Virus record (IMG/VR): IMGVR_UViG_3300034272_001431
Location: 1 to 61,194 of that record
Reading direction: 5' to 3' (one strand)
DNA length: 61,194 nt
Source of the DNA: a virus
Below, one piece after another: positions 5-10,831 of the stretch. Each line of letters begins with the position of its first letter. Position 1 is the stretch's first letter. The notes below the pieces were generated by a model. That model saw only the letters and a program-made list of their open reading frames with translations, had not been told where the DNA came from and made no database searches. Made by a program: the position numbers and the translations under genes.

Positions 5-16
5 GTTCTTTGAAAT
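5..16 (+). promoter_or_regulatory. boxA-like antitermination motif leading the tRNA array
   Basis: GTTCTTTGAAAT resembles the boxA found in the leaders of Bacteroidota rRNA operons, which is bound by NusB/NusE. The identical 12-mer recurs at 7140-7151 near the start of the large structured RNA. The promoter of this array lies outside the window. Function is inferred from similarity and position. Confidence 0.5.
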
Positions 17-6192: not shown

Positions 6193-6854
6193 TGGAAAAA
6201 TTTATTAACCCAGCCCCGTATGGTAATATGAAATCATCTATGATGTCAAAATCTGTTGATTTAATTGCATACCCAAATTCAAAATTAATAAATCCCTATG
6301 ACGGTGTTATTATTTTTGACAGAACACCTTCTTGTGAAAATTTTATTAAAATTAAACATGAGTTTAATGGTGATGATATATATTCCGAATTTTGTAATGT
6401 TGGTAAATCATTTGTTTCACCAGGCGATAGAATAAAACAAGGTCAAATTATTGGACATTTCACTGACGATAGAATTAGTTACTCAATAAAAAACAATGAT
6501 GATAAAAAATTAGACGTATCAACATATCTAAAAGGTGTTGGTCCTAAAAAAGAAGACCCTAAAAAAGAAGACCCTAAAAAAGAAGACCCTAAAAAAAATA
6601 AACCAATACAAGATGACCCTAAACTTGATGATAACCCTAAACTTGATATTGGAAATAAAAATGTTGGGTCTGGTAATGTTTTCTTAGATACATTATTATC
6701 CCCATTTTCAATTGCCGATGATATTACCAAAGGTGTCGGTAAAAACATAAAAGATGTTGGTAAAAACATTAAGAAAGCTTTCAAAGAAGATTATGGTAAT
6801 AATAAAAGACTTGTCGAACAAATAGATAAGATTAAAAAAATTATAAATAATTAA
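6192..6854 (+). CDS. degenerate M23-like (LytM) protein with repeat linker
   Basis: 220 aa, overlapping the previous gene by one base. Residues of about 30-105 follow the M23 beta-core pattern (PYDGVIIF, IKIKHEFNGDDIYSEF, VSPGDRIKQGQIIGHF), but the HxxxD and HxH zinc motifs are missing, so it is probably inactive and may bind peptidoglycan. A PKKED repeat linker follows, then FLDTLLSPF and a terminal helix RLVEQIDKIKKIINN that resembles the end of the upstream M15 protein. A shared role with that protein is likely. Confidence 0.65.
   Translation: MEKFINPAPYGNMKSSMMSKSVDLIAYPNSKLINPYDGVIIFDRTPSCENFIKIKHEFNGDDIYSEFCNVGKSFVSPGDRIKQGQIIGHFTDDRISYSIKNNDDKKLDVSTYLKGVGPKKEDPKKEDPKKEDPKKNKPIQDDPKLDDNPKLDIGNKNVGSGNVFLDTLLSPFSIADDITKGVGKNIKDVGKNIKKAFKEDYGNNKRLVEQIDKIKKIINN
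6543..6602 (+). repeat. 15 nt tandem repeat (PKKED)
   Basis: CCTAAAAAAGAAGAC is repeated three times in a row with a partial fourth copy. In frame it encodes a charged linker. Confidence 0.9.
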
Positions 6855-6856
6855 AT

Positions 6857-6886
6857 AATCCCCCTTTTTTAGGGGGTTTTTTTTTC
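6857..6886 (+). terminator. rho-independent terminator
   Basis: CCCCCT/AGGGGG stem with a T-rich loop and a run of T. It ends the lysin-type transcript just before the tandem promoters. Confidence 0.85.
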
Positions 6887-6898
6887 TTTAAAAAAAAT

Positions 6899-6930
6899 TT
6901 TGGTGAATCGAAAAAGTTTACTTATCTTTG
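6899..6930 (+). promoter_or_regulatory. tandem promoter 1 of the structured RNA
   Basis: TTTG (6899-6902), 20 nt, TATCTTTG (6923-6930). First of three near-identical promoter repeats. Confidence 0.88.
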
Positions 6931-6989
6931 TAAAACAAAAGAGATAGATAACGATTCAGATACAAATCTTTAAAAAAAATAAAAAAAGA

Positions 6990-7021
6990 TTTGGTAAATC
7001 AAAAAAGTTTACTTATCTTTG
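6990..7021 (+). promoter_or_regulatory. tandem promoter 2 of the structured RNA
   Basis: TTTG (6990-6993), 20 nt, TATCTTTG (7014-7021). The box is 91 nt downstream of the first. Confidence 0.88.
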
Positions 7022-7081
7022 TACAACAAAAGAGATAGATAACAATTCAGATACAAATCTTAAAAAAAAAATAAAAAAAGA

Positions 7082-7113
7082 TTTGGTAAATCAAAAAACT
7101 TTACTTATCTTTG
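7082..7113 (+). promoter_or_regulatory. tandem promoter 3 of the structured RNA
   Basis: TTTG (7082-7085), 20 nt, TATCTTTG (7106-7113). The box is 92 nt downstream of the second. Transcription should start near 7118. Confidence 0.88.
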
Positions 7114-7139
7114 TAAAACAAATCGGAAGAGTCCGAAAC

Positions 7140-7151
7140 GTTCTTTGAAAT
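7140..7151 (+). promoter_or_regulatory. boxA-like motif in the leader of the structured RNA
   Basis: GTTCTTTGAAAT, identical to positions 5-16 upstream of the tRNA array. It lies about 22 nt into the transcript, after a small hairpin CGGA-AGAG-TCCG (7124-7135). A role in antitermination through an untranslated RNA is inferred. Confidence 0.5.
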
Positions 7152-8041
7152 ATTATTATCCATTACAACACTTCGGTGTTGTATAAAAGATAATCGGCCG
7201 TATATGGTCGTTAAATAAACCTCGAAAGGGGGATAAAGTGAAATCATAAGTGTTAATGGTTTTGCGGTTCGGGTAACCGAACTCGAGTATACAAGTGGGA
7301 TATCAGTGAGCCTGTAGTACCGAGGATAACTTCGTAGGGAAATGGAAAACTGAACGGGCAATGTGGATTGTCAGTTTGAGGTGGGAACACCAATAAGAAT
7401 AACCCATAGGGGCCAAGTGAGAAGTGTACTCCGAATACACAATTGCGGGTCCCAATATAAGAGGTGACTTAAAACCGAAGGGATAAAACCTGAAGGTAAG
7501 ATAGAGAACGAGTGGTGTCGCTAATATCCTTACCACAGACCCACCAAGGTCTTGGTACGAAGTAATCTTAAAATATGAGAGTGGGGACACTCTACCGAGT
7601 AGAAAAGTATCTTGTTGTTCAAAAGACAACGAGGCTTAAGACGGACCTCTACTTGGAATCATCCACAACACATAACTTATACTAAATTTAAGTAAAACTA
7701 AAATAACTATAAGCAAAAGTGTTCGTCAGGTTTTGATGAAAGTCGCCTACATAGTCATGAGTTGTTCATGGCATACCGAGACCGCAAGTCAACGTATATT
7801 GTTACCAAAAACCTCTAAGGAGTCGAATCCTAAGTCAGTTCGCAAGATTGAGGAGAGTAGAGTAGTAATAGAGTAGTTAAAACCTTAAGAAGTGATTGGT
7901 CTAACCAATCGGCGATGAGGATTACCATTCAAAAGATGGTGGAAATGAAGGGAAACAATAATCCTTCTAAAGATTCTCACAAAACGGTGTATTCTCAGCC
8001 CTTTTTAAAATTACCCAATATATAGAATACGATTTTTAATC

Positions 8042-8068
8042 AAACCTCAATAATCTTGGGGTTTTTTT
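8042..8068 (+). terminator. rho-independent terminator of the structured RNA
   Basis: AAACCTCAA/TTGGGGTTT, 9 bp with one G-T pair, loop TAATC, followed by a T-run. Confidence 0.88.
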
Positions 8069-8103
8069 ATTTTAAAAAAAGTTTTGTAATTTAATTTATG
8101 TGT

Positions 8104-8136
8104 ATAAAAAAACCCCACCTTTTTAAGATGAGGTTT
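8104..8136 (-). terminator. rho-independent terminator of tmRNA
   Basis: On the minus strand AAACCTCATCTT pairs with AAGGTGGGGTTT (12 bp with wobbles), followed by a T-run. It lies 7 nt beyond the tmRNA 3' end. Confidence 0.85.
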
Positions 8137-8142
8137 AATTAG

Positions 8143-8529
8143 TGGAGGTAGAGGGGTTCGAACCCTCGTGTTGTACACCTTACCTATTAAGGACTACACG
8201 CTTAGGATAACATTTTCTAATGTTCCAAAAATAGTTAGTTCGTTCTTCACCATCGTAAACTAACAACCAATGGATGACTCAATTTTGGGTTCAGTCATTT
8301 TTCCACCCTTGTAAAGACTTCTGTTCCTAGGTTGTATGTCCACCGACCCGTATGGTTGTTTCCTATATGTTAGGCAACTACCGCAGCGTCTTCACGGATT
8401 AATCCGATTGTCGCCATTTTGTTTAAAACGTTTCCGTTTACTGTTTACATCCGTAGATTTAAGTGAAAGGATACATCTCACTGCGTGCCCCGAATAACTA
8501 ACAATGCCAGTCAATTCCAAGTTACCCCC
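8143..8529 (-). ncRNA. ssrA: transfer-messenger RNA (tmRNA), phage-encoded
   Basis: 387 nt on the minus strand, normal tmRNA length. The 5' GGGGGTA pairs with the 3' TACCTCC as acceptor stem, followed by discriminator A. The 5' segment GGAATTGACTGGCATT matches the conserved tmRNA D-loop region, and the T arm is GAGGG-TTCGAAC-CCCTC. The tag reading frame (8414-8370) is inferred to resume at GCG and read ATIGLIREDAAVVA-stop. The end is CTA rather than CCA, so CCA must be added enzymatically. tmRNA with SmpB rescues stalled ribosomes and appends a degradation tag. SmpB is not in the window. It has its own promoter and terminator. Confidence 0.9.
8370..8414 (-). other. tmRNA tag reading frame
   Basis: GCG ACA ATC ... 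GCC TAA encodes ATIGLIREDAAVVA. Usual bacterial tags end in LAA (for example YALAA), and this one ends in VVA. The resume codon is inferred as GCG following AAACAAAATG. Resumption one codon earlier at ATG cannot be excluded. Confidence 0.7.
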
Positions 8530-8555
8530 ATATTTCAAAAAACTTATTTCTTGTA

Positions 8556-8586
8556 CAAAGATAGTAAAGTCTTATTAATTACCAAA
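8556..8586 (-). promoter_or_regulatory. promoter of tmRNA
   Basis: Read on the minus strand: TTTG (8586-8583), 19 nt, TATCTTTG (8563-8556). Transcription would begin about 20 nt before the mature 5' end at 8529. Confidence 0.85.
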
Positions 8587-8594
8587 CTATTTTA

Positions 8595-8602
8595 TATTTA
8601 TA
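8595..8602 (+). promoter_or_regulatory. late-type element TATTTATA
   Basis: 16 nt upstream of the GTG start at 8618, and back to back with the tmRNA promoter. Confidence 0.45.
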
Positions 8603-8617
8603 TGTAAATAAATATTT

Positions 8618-9982
8618 GTGAAAGATTCAAAAAATGCTAAAATAATATTTGAAAACGAGTATGTTGTATTTGTACAGGTGTTCAACAAGAACGCGGCCAC
8701 ATATTACGGACCTCCAAAAGTTACTGAATTATATGACCGAGATTTTAGTCATGGTGAATTATTTTTTGCCGTAAGTAAATTTAATCCTGGTCCTGAATAT
8801 ATATATACACTATACAAACCTACAGACGGTGAACTTGAATACTATTCAGGTATTGAATTAAAACTTGAAAGTTACGATAACATCACATTTAAGTATCCGT
8901 ACTTAAAACCCTATGTCCAAGATATTAGAGGAAATAGTGAAATATATGATTTGTTATTGAAAATTAAAAATGGTCAAAAGGTAAATAACTGGGACGCTAA
9001 TAACTTTGACCCAATCGTATATGACATCAAATTTAATGAACAAACACCGGGTAAGAGTAGAGTTAAATTAAAATTTGACAATTATGAGGATTATTGGAAA
9101 TTATTTGACCTATCTGATGGAGATATTTGGTTTGCAAATTACGTATATTCTAATTATGAGTCCTACGATTTTGAAAGTGGAGATTTTGTTGATGAGGATT
9201 GGAGAAGAGGTTATTTATTACGTGAATTAAATGATGAAAACCTAATTAAATTAAAAGAAATTTTAAAAATACTATCACCAGAACTTTCACAATTACGAAA
9301 TGATGAAGAATGGGAAAAATCGTCTATTTTATTATTAACAACATTTGAACGTGAATCTCAGGAAATTATGTCTGATTGGTTGTCAGAAAGAAATAACTGT
9401 AAAGAACGAGGTGCCCGTAAGATGATGGAAGACGACTGTTGTAATTTTTTCCAAAATTATGGAATATTCAATATGGGAAATTGTTTTTATAGTTATGTGA
9501 CGACAGTATCTGTGTTATTATCTTTATATTCAATGACGGGCGAAAGACATTTAACGGTTAGTGAGGTTTTAAGTGATATTGGACATAAATCAGGCAATAT
9601 TGGTGGATGGGAAGAATATTCTTATGAACAAGATTGTATTGATTTTGATGATGAATCATTTAATCGTACTTGTGGTTGGCAATTAGATAATATGTTTACT
9701 AAACTTGAAGACTCTGACGAATTTGAAGATATTAAAAAATTCTCAGATAATGCGTCAAAAATTTTAAGTAAGTACGATATGGAAACTAATTACAAATTAC
9801 CCAAAGACGAATCAAGAAATTTTAAAATAGTTAAAATGGACCCAAAAACAAATAAAGTCCATGTTGTGGTTTCATTAAAAGGTGGGTATCGTGGAGAAAA
9901 AAGAAGTTATGATTTTGAAGACTTTGACCAACTTTTACATCAATCGGAATTATTTGAAAATAAATTTGTCAAAGTCAAGTAA
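8618..9982 (+). CDS. hypothetical protein (454 aa), acidic
   Basis: The start is probably GTG at 8618, because an in-frame stop lies just upstream and the next Met is deep inside. The first 100 residues hold a pattern (KIIFENEYVVFVQVFNKNAATYYG) that looks like a compact beta domain. The rest is rich in Asp, Glu, Tyr and Phe. A Cys-containing segment (MMEDDCCNFFQNYGIFNMGNC) lies near residues 269-289. I recognise no family. It is followed immediately by a peptidase gene whose promoter lies inside this gene's end. Confidence 0.75.
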   Translation: MKDSKNAKIIFENEYVVFVQVFNKNAATYYGPPKVTELYDRDFSHGELFFAVSKFNPGPEYIYTLYKPTDGELEYYSGIELKLESYDNITFKYPYLKPYVQDIRGNSEIYDLLLKIKNGQKVNNWDANNFDPIVYDIKFNEQTPGKSRVKLKFDNYEDYWKLFDLSDGDIWFANYVYSNYESYDFESGDFVDEDWRRGYLLRELNDENLIKLKEILKILSPELSQLRNDEEWEKSSILLLTTFERESQEIMSDWLSERNNCKERGARKMMEDDCCNFFQNYGIFNMGNCFYSYVTTVSVLLSLYSMTGERHLTVSEVLSDIGHKSGNIGGWEEYSYEQDCIDFDDESFNRTCGWQLDNMFTKLEDSDEFEDIKKFSDNASKILSKYDMETNYKLPKDESRNFKIVKMDPKTNKVHVVVSLKGGYRGEKRSYDFEDFDQLLHQSELFENKFVKVK

Positions 9983-9996
9983 TTTACTTATCTTTG
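9965..9996 (+). promoter_or_regulatory. promoter of the M20-type peptidase gene
   Basis: TTTG (9965-9968), 20 nt, TATCTTTG (9989-9996), overlapping the 3' end of the upstream gene. The ATG at 10001 follows the box by only 4 nt, so the mRNA would be leaderless or nearly so. Confidence 0.8.
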
Positions 9997-10000
9997 GCCT

Positions 10001-10831
10001 ATGGAGAGAAACTATCAATTACTAAAGGACGTTTTGTCGGTCCCAACAAAGACATATAAGGAAGACCGAATGATTGAGTTTTTAGTTAATTGGTTAACTG
10101 AAAACCAAATACCATTTCAAGTTGACAAACACCGAAACATTTACGCAACTAAAACATCTCAGGATATTACTAAAGATTTCTTTTTCCCGTGTGTTATTGC
10201 CCATACTGACACCGTACATCAATTAGATGTTATAAACGTCAAAGAAATGGAATTACCTAACGCTCAGGGAGTAATTAAACCATCTTTAAAAGCGTTCAAC
10301 GATTTAGGACAATCAACAGGAATTGGTGGTGATGATAAATGTGGCGTTTATGCATGTTTAGAATTATTAAAAGAATTACCAAATCTTAAAGCCGCATTTT
10401 TTGTTTCTGAAGAAACAGGTTGTCACGGTTCAAAACAAGCCGATAAAGATTTCTTCAAGAACGTAGGGTACGGAATTCAATTTGATGCACCTGAGAATTG
10501 GATGGTTAGTGAGTTCTGTATGGGTGTTCAGTTATTTGGTAGAGACACCGAGTTTTTTAAATCGTGTGATGAGGTATTAACCGAAACATTTAATCCTGAC
10601 AGAAAATATCAGTCTCACCCATATACCGATGTTTACGCATTGAAGAATACATTCGACTTCTCATGTATTAACTTCTCAATTGGGTACTATGATTACCACA
10701 CAAGAGAAGAATATGTGGTTATTGAGGATGTTTATAACGGAATTAAAACGGGTAAAGAATTAATTGAAAAATTGGGTAACGTAAAATACCCATTCAAATC
10801 AAAACCACGATACAGTTATTTATTTGACTAA
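10001..10831 (+). CDS. M20-family metallopeptidase-like protein (peptidase T type)
   Basis: 276 aa. Motifs in family order: AHTD (H68, D70), GGDDKCG (D111/D112, bridging metal ligand), SEETG (E137/E138, general base and ligand), FDAP (D162) and a late His in YYDYHTREE. This is a full dinuclear zinc aminopeptidase/carboxypeptidase set. It lacks the extra dimerisation domain of longer M20 enzymes. A role in recycling peptides or trimming a host protein is possible. It is transcribed from its own host-type promoter, which suggests early expression. Confidence 0.82.
   Translation: MERNYQLLKDVLSVPTKTYKEDRMIEFLVNWLTENQIPFQVDKHRNIYATKTSQDITKDFFFPCVIAHTDTVHQLDVINVKEMELPNAQGVIKPSLKAFNDLGQSTGIGGDDKCGVYACLELLKELPNLKAAFFVSEETGCHGSKQADKDFFKNVGYGIQFDAPENWMVSEFCMGVQLFGRDTEFFKSCDEVLTETFNPDRKYQSHPYTDVYALKNTFDFSCINFSIGYYDYHTREEYVVIEDVYNGIKTGKELIEKLGNVKYPFKSKPRYSYLFD

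Follow-up and report, generated by a model that had tools for sequence, protein, structure and literature searches.

The stretch of DNA analyzed here (the window) is the whole 61,194-base virus record IMGVR_UViG_3300034272_001431. It carries terminase, portal and major head genes, a tRNA array and a single GOLLD RNA gene. The GOLLD gene is preceded by three tandem promoters and a leader with a hairpin and a boxA-like word and is followed by an intrinsic terminator and a convergent tmRNA gene (Table 1). The RNA measures approximately 885 nt up to where the modelled 3' domain ends and approximately 950 nt up to the terminator. The original GOLLD paper is said to be that of Weinberg in 2009.

Table 1: Features of the GOLLD locus and of the tRNA array in the window.
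Feature	Position	Strand	Basis
Second boxA-like element GTTCTTTGA	5-13	+	110 nt before first called tRNA (124) of the array
Host-type promoter 1, TTTG-N20-TATCTTTG	6899-6930	+	Pattern search; 91-nt repeat
Host-type promoter 2, TTTG-N20-TATCTTTG	6990-7021	+	Pattern search; same 91-nt repeat
Host-type promoter 3, TTTG-N20-TATCTTTG	7082-7113	+	Pattern search; same 91-nt repeat
Hairpin TCGGA-AGAG-TCCGA directly before boxA, boxB-like position	7123-7136	+	Folding against shuffles, window z -5.2
boxA-like element GTTCTTTGA	7140-7148	+	Recurrent leader word; Bacteroidota 16S rRNA leader form
UUCG hairpin, variable leader between boxA and core	7165-7182	+	Read from sequence
GOLLD 5' domain, widespread type	7186-7594	+	Co-occurrence with 3' half, alignment, covariation; invariant GAAA loop 7224-7227
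GOLLD 3' domain	7595-8001	+	RF02032 model 1-416
A/U-rich variable linker	7659-7713	+	RF02032 alignment, limits by eye
Hairpin corresponding to L21a, self-complementary CG at 7824-7825 (bridge B8)	7818-7831	+	Assigned by position
Intrinsic terminator	8042-8071	+	Hairpin 8042-8064 and T run
tmRNA gene, convergent with GOLLD	8140-8529	-	Rfam

The identity of the RNA was determined by an Rfam scan of the window. The GOLLD model RF02032 matched with 324.3 bits and an E value of 4e-92 at a cut-off of 150 bits, and the alignment covered all of its 416 positions. A preliminary description of this DNA had assigned the RNA to an unknown family, which this match contradicts. It had also proposed a check with the Rfam models of large RNAs, and its GOLLD alternative is settled by this result. 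The further suggestion of a divergent GOLLD- or ROOL-like member or a new class was right in that the RNA is GOLLD-like and from a phage. It is neither divergent nor a new class, since its score falls in the range of 153 to 332 bits of the other GOLLDs compared here. No match to ROOL, for which Rfam includes a model, was obtained in the scan of the window, nor in 6850-8700 up to an E value of 1.

Rfam models the 3' half of GOLLD only, and the scan gave no match for the 5' half itself, which precedes the 3' domain in the window. A pattern from the GOLLD 3' end retrieved at least 120 stretches from viral contigs (123 loci at the time of the following count). Among the matches listed, both halves of the window RNA were found by blastn in 78 of the 123 loci, including the window itself (L001) and a contig with an identical RNA (L091). 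A large RNA of a new class, unrelated to GOLLD, would fit the missing Rfam match of the 5' half, but the full-model match at 324 bits and the joint occurrence of the two halves make it extremely improbable. In the 635-kb phage LR745206.1 the GOLLD is 78% identical to that of the window in the sole stretch found by blastn (22% of the query).

For the structural analysis 77 sequences were grouped into 90% clusters with 49 representatives, the window included; L048 was left out with its 5' part cut off. The 5' domain was alignable over its length across all representatives. RNAalifold predicted 104 pairs in 23 helices, and 85 of the pairs showed changes on both sides. The covariation score was 0.658. 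Shuffled alignments gave 0.234, with none of 500 reaching the observed value, and shifted pairs gave 0.086-0.121. Relatedness alone can beat a shuffle control in this type of test, but it would not account for a difference from the shifted pairs as large as this one. In the consensus 96.9% of the alignment cells were paired, a figure which is flattered by the use of one alignment both for deriving the structure and for scoring it. A covarying secondary structure is thus found in both domains, by alignment for the 5' domain and by the Rfam model for the 3' domain. Lack of covariation above background had been named in advance as a possible refutation; the score is far above both controls. Of the stable hairpins of the preliminary description, the UUCG hairpin and the GAAA loop were recovered, the latter being invariant in 49 of 49 representatives. 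Because of the full RF02032 match and the widespread, covarying 5' domain, the body of the window RNA is an ordinary GOLLD and a new member of a known family. That it is a full-length GOLLD is virtually certain.

GOLLD env-38, the best-studied relative, forms a hollow homo-14-mer cage by cryo-EM with an A/U-rich variable linker placed inside, and switching between GC and CG supports a bridge B8 between chains (PMC12286853, in excerpt). The loop dinucleotide at the L21a position was self-complementary in all 49 representatives (GC 36, CG 11 including the window, AT 2), AT being a third self-complementary state. The script itself returned GC 34, CG 10 and AT 2; L005, left unresolved, and L123 and L056, folded otherwise, were assigned by eye. 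These 49 loops are not 49 independent cases because relatives share states by descent. By analogy with env-38, the window RNA would be expected to assemble into a similar cage.

The longest open frame in 7117-8001 has 110 codons, with a shuffle mean of 86 and 23 of 200 shuffles reaching the same length. An antisense ORF of 108 amino acids gave tblastn matches in 42 of the 49 representatives, the window included, and 27 of these contained stops in the aligned part. No conserved protein frame, the other refutation named in advance, was found across the 49 representatives. The window GOLLD is non-coding by these measures, as the statement that there is no credible protein gene had it. The antisense ORF could be cited in favour of a cryptic protein gene, but this reading and that of chance folding can practically be dismissed in view of the frame length in the shuffle range, the stops and the covariation of the 5' domain.

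The pattern TTTG-N20-TAnnTTTG has four sites in the window, compared with 0.97 (sd 1.05) expected by chance for the whole window; 3 of 100 shuffles reached four. Three sites are arranged in tandem on a 91-nt direct repeat before GOLLD. These are the three host-type promoters of the preliminary description, located just upstream of the interval 7114-8068 given there. A sigma-70 scan did not detect them; we take the sites to be of the Bacteroidota promoter type. Transcription probably starts at about 7117-7121. The terminator claimed earlier was recovered as well, and 10 terminator-like sites were counted in 6700-8700 against 1.2 expected. High abundance of the RNA during infection is plausible. 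A 76-nt tRNA-Glu stretch matched Flavobacterium phages with 96% identity. From this match and the promoter type we infer that the host of the phage belongs to the Bacteroidota.

A fourth promoter copy with the word TTTACTTATCTTTG was found at 9965-9996, just before a gene at 10001, and this 14-mer may be the strong promoter consensus of the phage. A PDB search with a 454-aa protein encoded downstream gave no match. In phage LR745206.1, 141 nt of the promoter repeat region are 87% identical. The promoter repeat (window 6889-7162, L003 4507-4646) is better conserved than the blastn-matched GOLLD stretch, with 87% over 141 nt versus 78%. It contains short palindromes, GATTTggtAAATC, which are operator-like in look.

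Between the third promoter and the GOLLD core the window contains first a hairpin and then the word GTTCTTTGA. A comparison of the leaders of 78 loci revealed one recurring word between promoter and core, either GTTCTTTGA or GTTCTTTAA. Two of the 49 representatives had too little sequence upstream; GTTCTTTRA was present in 45 of the 47 non-redundant leaders that remained. The background of this motif is 0.05-0.06 per kb per strand. A motif-free word count likewise gave GTTCTTT as the most widespread 7-mer (45 of 47 leaders), followed by AAAAAAA (36). With duplicates included, the word occurred within 800 nt before the 3' domain in 71 of the 74 loci that share the 5' type of the window and had sufficient sequence upstream, and in 78 of the 87 loci of all types. 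The window-type loci without it were L002, L054 (GTTCTTAGA) and L096 (GTTCTTTTA); the cluster of L096 is represented by L073, which carries the word. Among 13 loci with a 5' half too divergent for a blastn match, the word was found in seven, L099 and L087 were one or two bases off, and L239, L055 and L007/L053 were without it. On visual inspection, this second 5' type resembles a remote variant of the first more than an unrelated domain. In the stretches examined the motif was absent from L239 (a Streptococcus phage), L183 (Mycobacterium), L002, L007/L053 and L055. Consequently, boxA is not required for GOLLD as such.

Among the 38 leaders for which a promoter was located, the window included, the hairpin upstream of boxA had a z value below -1.5 in 24 and was not clearly better than shuffles in the other 14; mononucleotide shuffles and a loose promoter search were used. 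Among the open-access PMC papers searched, no paper was found which joined boxA with GOLLD or boxA with phage tRNAs of Bacteroidota. As far as these searches show, the boxA leader on GOLLD is new, and the novelty sits in the leader, not in the RNA body.

The antitermination leader of rrn operons works with NusA, NusB, NusE, NusG, SuhB and S4. Leaders of rRNA operons have the order boxB, boxA, boxC; for the antitermination complex of rRNA, boxA is both required and sufficient (PMC10250234, in excerpt). Of 52 Bacteroidota 16S leaders, 40 contained a boxA-like word 60-250 nt upstream of the 16S start (shuffle chance 1.6%), and 12 were without a motif match. The leaders were at least 200 nt long, their start was set by an anchor and mononucleotide shuffles were used; the set includes two operons of one genome and one locus without anchor. 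Since a leader may hold two words, 44 words were counted: 16 times GTTCTTTGA, 15 times GTTCATTGA, 9 times GTTCATTAA and 4 others. GTTCTTTGA, the word of the window, is thus the commonest single boxA word in the rRNA leaders of the presumed host phylum, and the related forms beside it are mostly GTTCATTRA. In a Flavobacterium-family set a boxA-like word was found in 21 of 28 leaders, and GTTCATTRA made up 22 of 24 words. If the host is a Flavobacterium, the phage word is therefore one base off the usual rRNA leader form. Compared with the gamma-proteobacterial boxA consensus GYTCTTTAANA (PMC5725501, in excerpt) the window word has one mismatch, G for A at position 8. Taken as a whole, the word is very probably a boxA homologue.

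boxA-like words were also observed before other RNA genes. The loci of the 49 representatives contain 58 such words apart from those in the GOLLD leader. Of these, 17 were located within 300 nt before a same-strand tRNA or tmRNA, versus 3.6% of positions; L113, L022 and L077 each have the word 14 nt before a tmRNA. The 16-mer GTTCTTTGANATATTG gave at least 121 sites in at least 119 newly fetched viral loci. Among the matches listed, 54 of 121 sites had a same-strand tRNA within 600 nt downstream, compared with 1 of 121 in the opposite direction and 9.9% of random positions. The spacing was 40 nt or less at 34 of the sites listed and 22-30 nt at 32 of these. The other 67 of the 121 sites listed had no tRNA within 600 nt, and some of them may be due to chance. 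One GTTCTTTGANATATTG site leads a further GOLLD (L380). The window contains 7 GTTCTTTRA words against 3.1 expected, with as many in 5 of 100 shuffles, and one of them precedes the tRNA array (Table 1). This array (1-1661) has long spacers with T-arm-like stretches outside the called tRNAs (seen by eye, for example, at approximately 207-331, 545-635 and 940-1016), which may be atypical or degenerate tRNAs.

The tRNAs next to GOLLD were then identified in the 49 representatives. Within 600 nt upstream 22 of 24 were tRNA-Met(CAU), and within 30 nt downstream 3 of 7, versus 10 of 151 among the other tRNAs of the same loci (Fisher P 3e-18 for the upstream set). Read by eye, 27 Met tRNAs lying no more than 600 nt from GOLLD in either direction included 23 with GG-CTCATAA-CC, 15 of these starting with an unpaired C1; farther off, GG-CTCATAA-CC was present in 1 of 8 Met tRNAs. 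We take both features to be marks of initiator tRNA, and the Met tRNAs beside GOLLD appear mostly initiator-like. In the window no tRNA-Met adjoins GOLLD. The tRNA proximity put forward earlier holds with a correction: the nearest called tRNA lies 5.5 kb upstream, but among the phage genes a convergent tmRNA follows 139 nt past the 3' domain. A convergent tmRNA was found in 7 of 12 loci scanned (L091, L106, L109, L041, L103, L032 and, 1.7 kb off, L064); L091, the copy of the window, L106, L109 and L041 are all in the 90% cluster of the window. Some GOLLD linkers contain tRNAs, env-38 lies downstream of a Met-tRNA, ribosomes were found in GOLLD pull-downs and GOLLD expression rises at lysis in other members (PMC12286853, in excerpt).

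The tmRNA of the window was found by Rfam and missed by ARAGORN, which reads the tag GNVLNKMETLGLLRESEVTVA in the tmRNA of L103. Judged by analogy, the window tmRNA would encode the tag GNVLNKMATIGLIREDAAVVA, which is long and lacks the usual ALAA end. This tmRNA has its own host-type promoter at 8586-8556 on the minus strand, read by eye. Its leader contains GTTTTTTGA at 8543-8535 (minus strand), one base off boxA at C4, which was left out of the counts.

A scan of bacterial genomes with the GOLLD pattern yielded at least 115 stretches. Eight of those listed matched the 3' domain profile at an E value of 1e-3 or better (L139, L157, L176, L183, L191, L202, L228 and L232), and only L183 and L191 were above the Rfam cut-off. 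The remaining stretches are probably chance matches. L183 from Mycobacterium alsense contains a GOLLD at 221 bits with a tRNA inside it at 1953-2025 and many tRNAs after it, and L191 from a Verrucomicrobia MAG contains one at 152.6 bits. GOLLD-like sequences under the cut-off were observed in the Saprospiraceae genomes L139, L176 and L228, and those of L139 and L228 lie within long tRNA arrays. GTTCATTGA precedes the GOLLD-like sequence in L139 and L176, and a similar word precedes it in L228. These three may be divergent GOLLDs.

The best explanation of the locus, to which we give a probability of roughly three in four on the sequence evidence, is a full-length GOLLD led by an rRNA-type antitermination leader and transcribed by polymerase under the host Nus complex. 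Host RNA polymerase would start at the three tandem promoters, and host NusB-S10 would bind the putative site GTTCTTTGA as boxA emerges. The Nus complex would then carry the polymerase through approximately 900 nt of untranslated, strongly folded RNA, would shield the transcript from Rho and might aid folding, as proposed for rRNA. The finished RNA would fold into its two domains and assemble into the cage. More generally, Bacteroidota phages appear to make GOLLD and tRNAs under the antitermination system of host rRNA.

Alternatively, GTTCTTTGA could be another start-proximal element, such as a processing site, an initial-transcribed sequence or a part of the fold, and not a Nus site. The 14 of 38 leaders without a clear boxB-like hairpin and the single base which differs from most Flavobacteriaceae rRNA leaders would agree with this. 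However, boxA lies anywhere between 8 and 213 nt from the aligned core in the representatives, the element also stands before the more divergent 5' halves, and it is identical to a word that occupies the corresponding position in Bacteroidota rRNA leaders. We consider this alternative unlikely. Slightly less likely still is an action of boxA in trans, by which the 14 leaders of a cage would act as a sponge for NusB-S10 and in this way stop the host from making rRNA. Such a sponge would be in line with one boxA near the 5' end of each subunit and with the reported rise at lysis and binding of ribosomes in pull-downs. But phage tRNA arrays and some tmRNAs are led by the same element, which processing would cut off there, and a single boxA per long RNA is just what action in cis needs. 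Because boxA before tRNAs would be lost on tRNA processing, action in cis is favoured, and it is the probable mode for the GOLLD leader.

The proposed antitermination leader bears on the question of how hundreds of untranslated, tightly folded nucleotides are made without Rho halting the polymerase. The host-type boxA conserved in front of almost every GOLLD of one large group offers an answer that is direct and testable, and the rRNA-type leader suggests how phages make such large RNAs. The known targets of boxA would be extended to phage RNAs, and GOLLD is linked to the neighbouring translation genes, initiator tRNA in particular. As a conjecture in line with these neighbours, the GOLLD cage may act on the translation apparatus, that is on initiator tRNA and ribosomes. 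A boxA regulon of Bacteroidota phages comprising GOLLD, tRNA arrays, initiator tRNA and some tmRNAs, together with a GOLLD that manages translation through initiator tRNA or ribosomes during infection, is a proposition for and against which we see equal chances. If this regulon exists, the host's rRNA transcription machine would be turned to making phage structural RNAs.

ROOL is likewise a large phage RNA cage often found near tRNAs (PMC12286853, in excerpt). It shares these properties with GOLLD, but no ROOL match is among the Rfam hits of the window. With GOLLD env-38 and RF02032 the window RNA shares the whole 3' domain model, the two-domain plan, the A/U-rich linker, the self-complementary loop at the B8 position, the phage setting and the tRNA or tmRNA neighbours. 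It differs from env-38 by the lack of a directly adjacent tRNA, the convergent tmRNA, the three tandem promoters and the rRNA-type boxA leader, a feature not mentioned in the excerpts of PMC12286853. With the rrn leader it has in common the order of promoter, hairpin, boxA and long structured untranslated RNA and the Bacteroidota boxA form GTTCTTTGA; in contrast to the rrn leader it precedes a phage RNA, and its Nus site is putative. A boxA before CRISPR arrays was reportedly described by Stringer et al. in 2020. There, too, a host boxA stands on a long non-coding transcript other than rRNA, in that case in host immune arrays, whereas here it leads a phage RNA and phage tRNA arrays.
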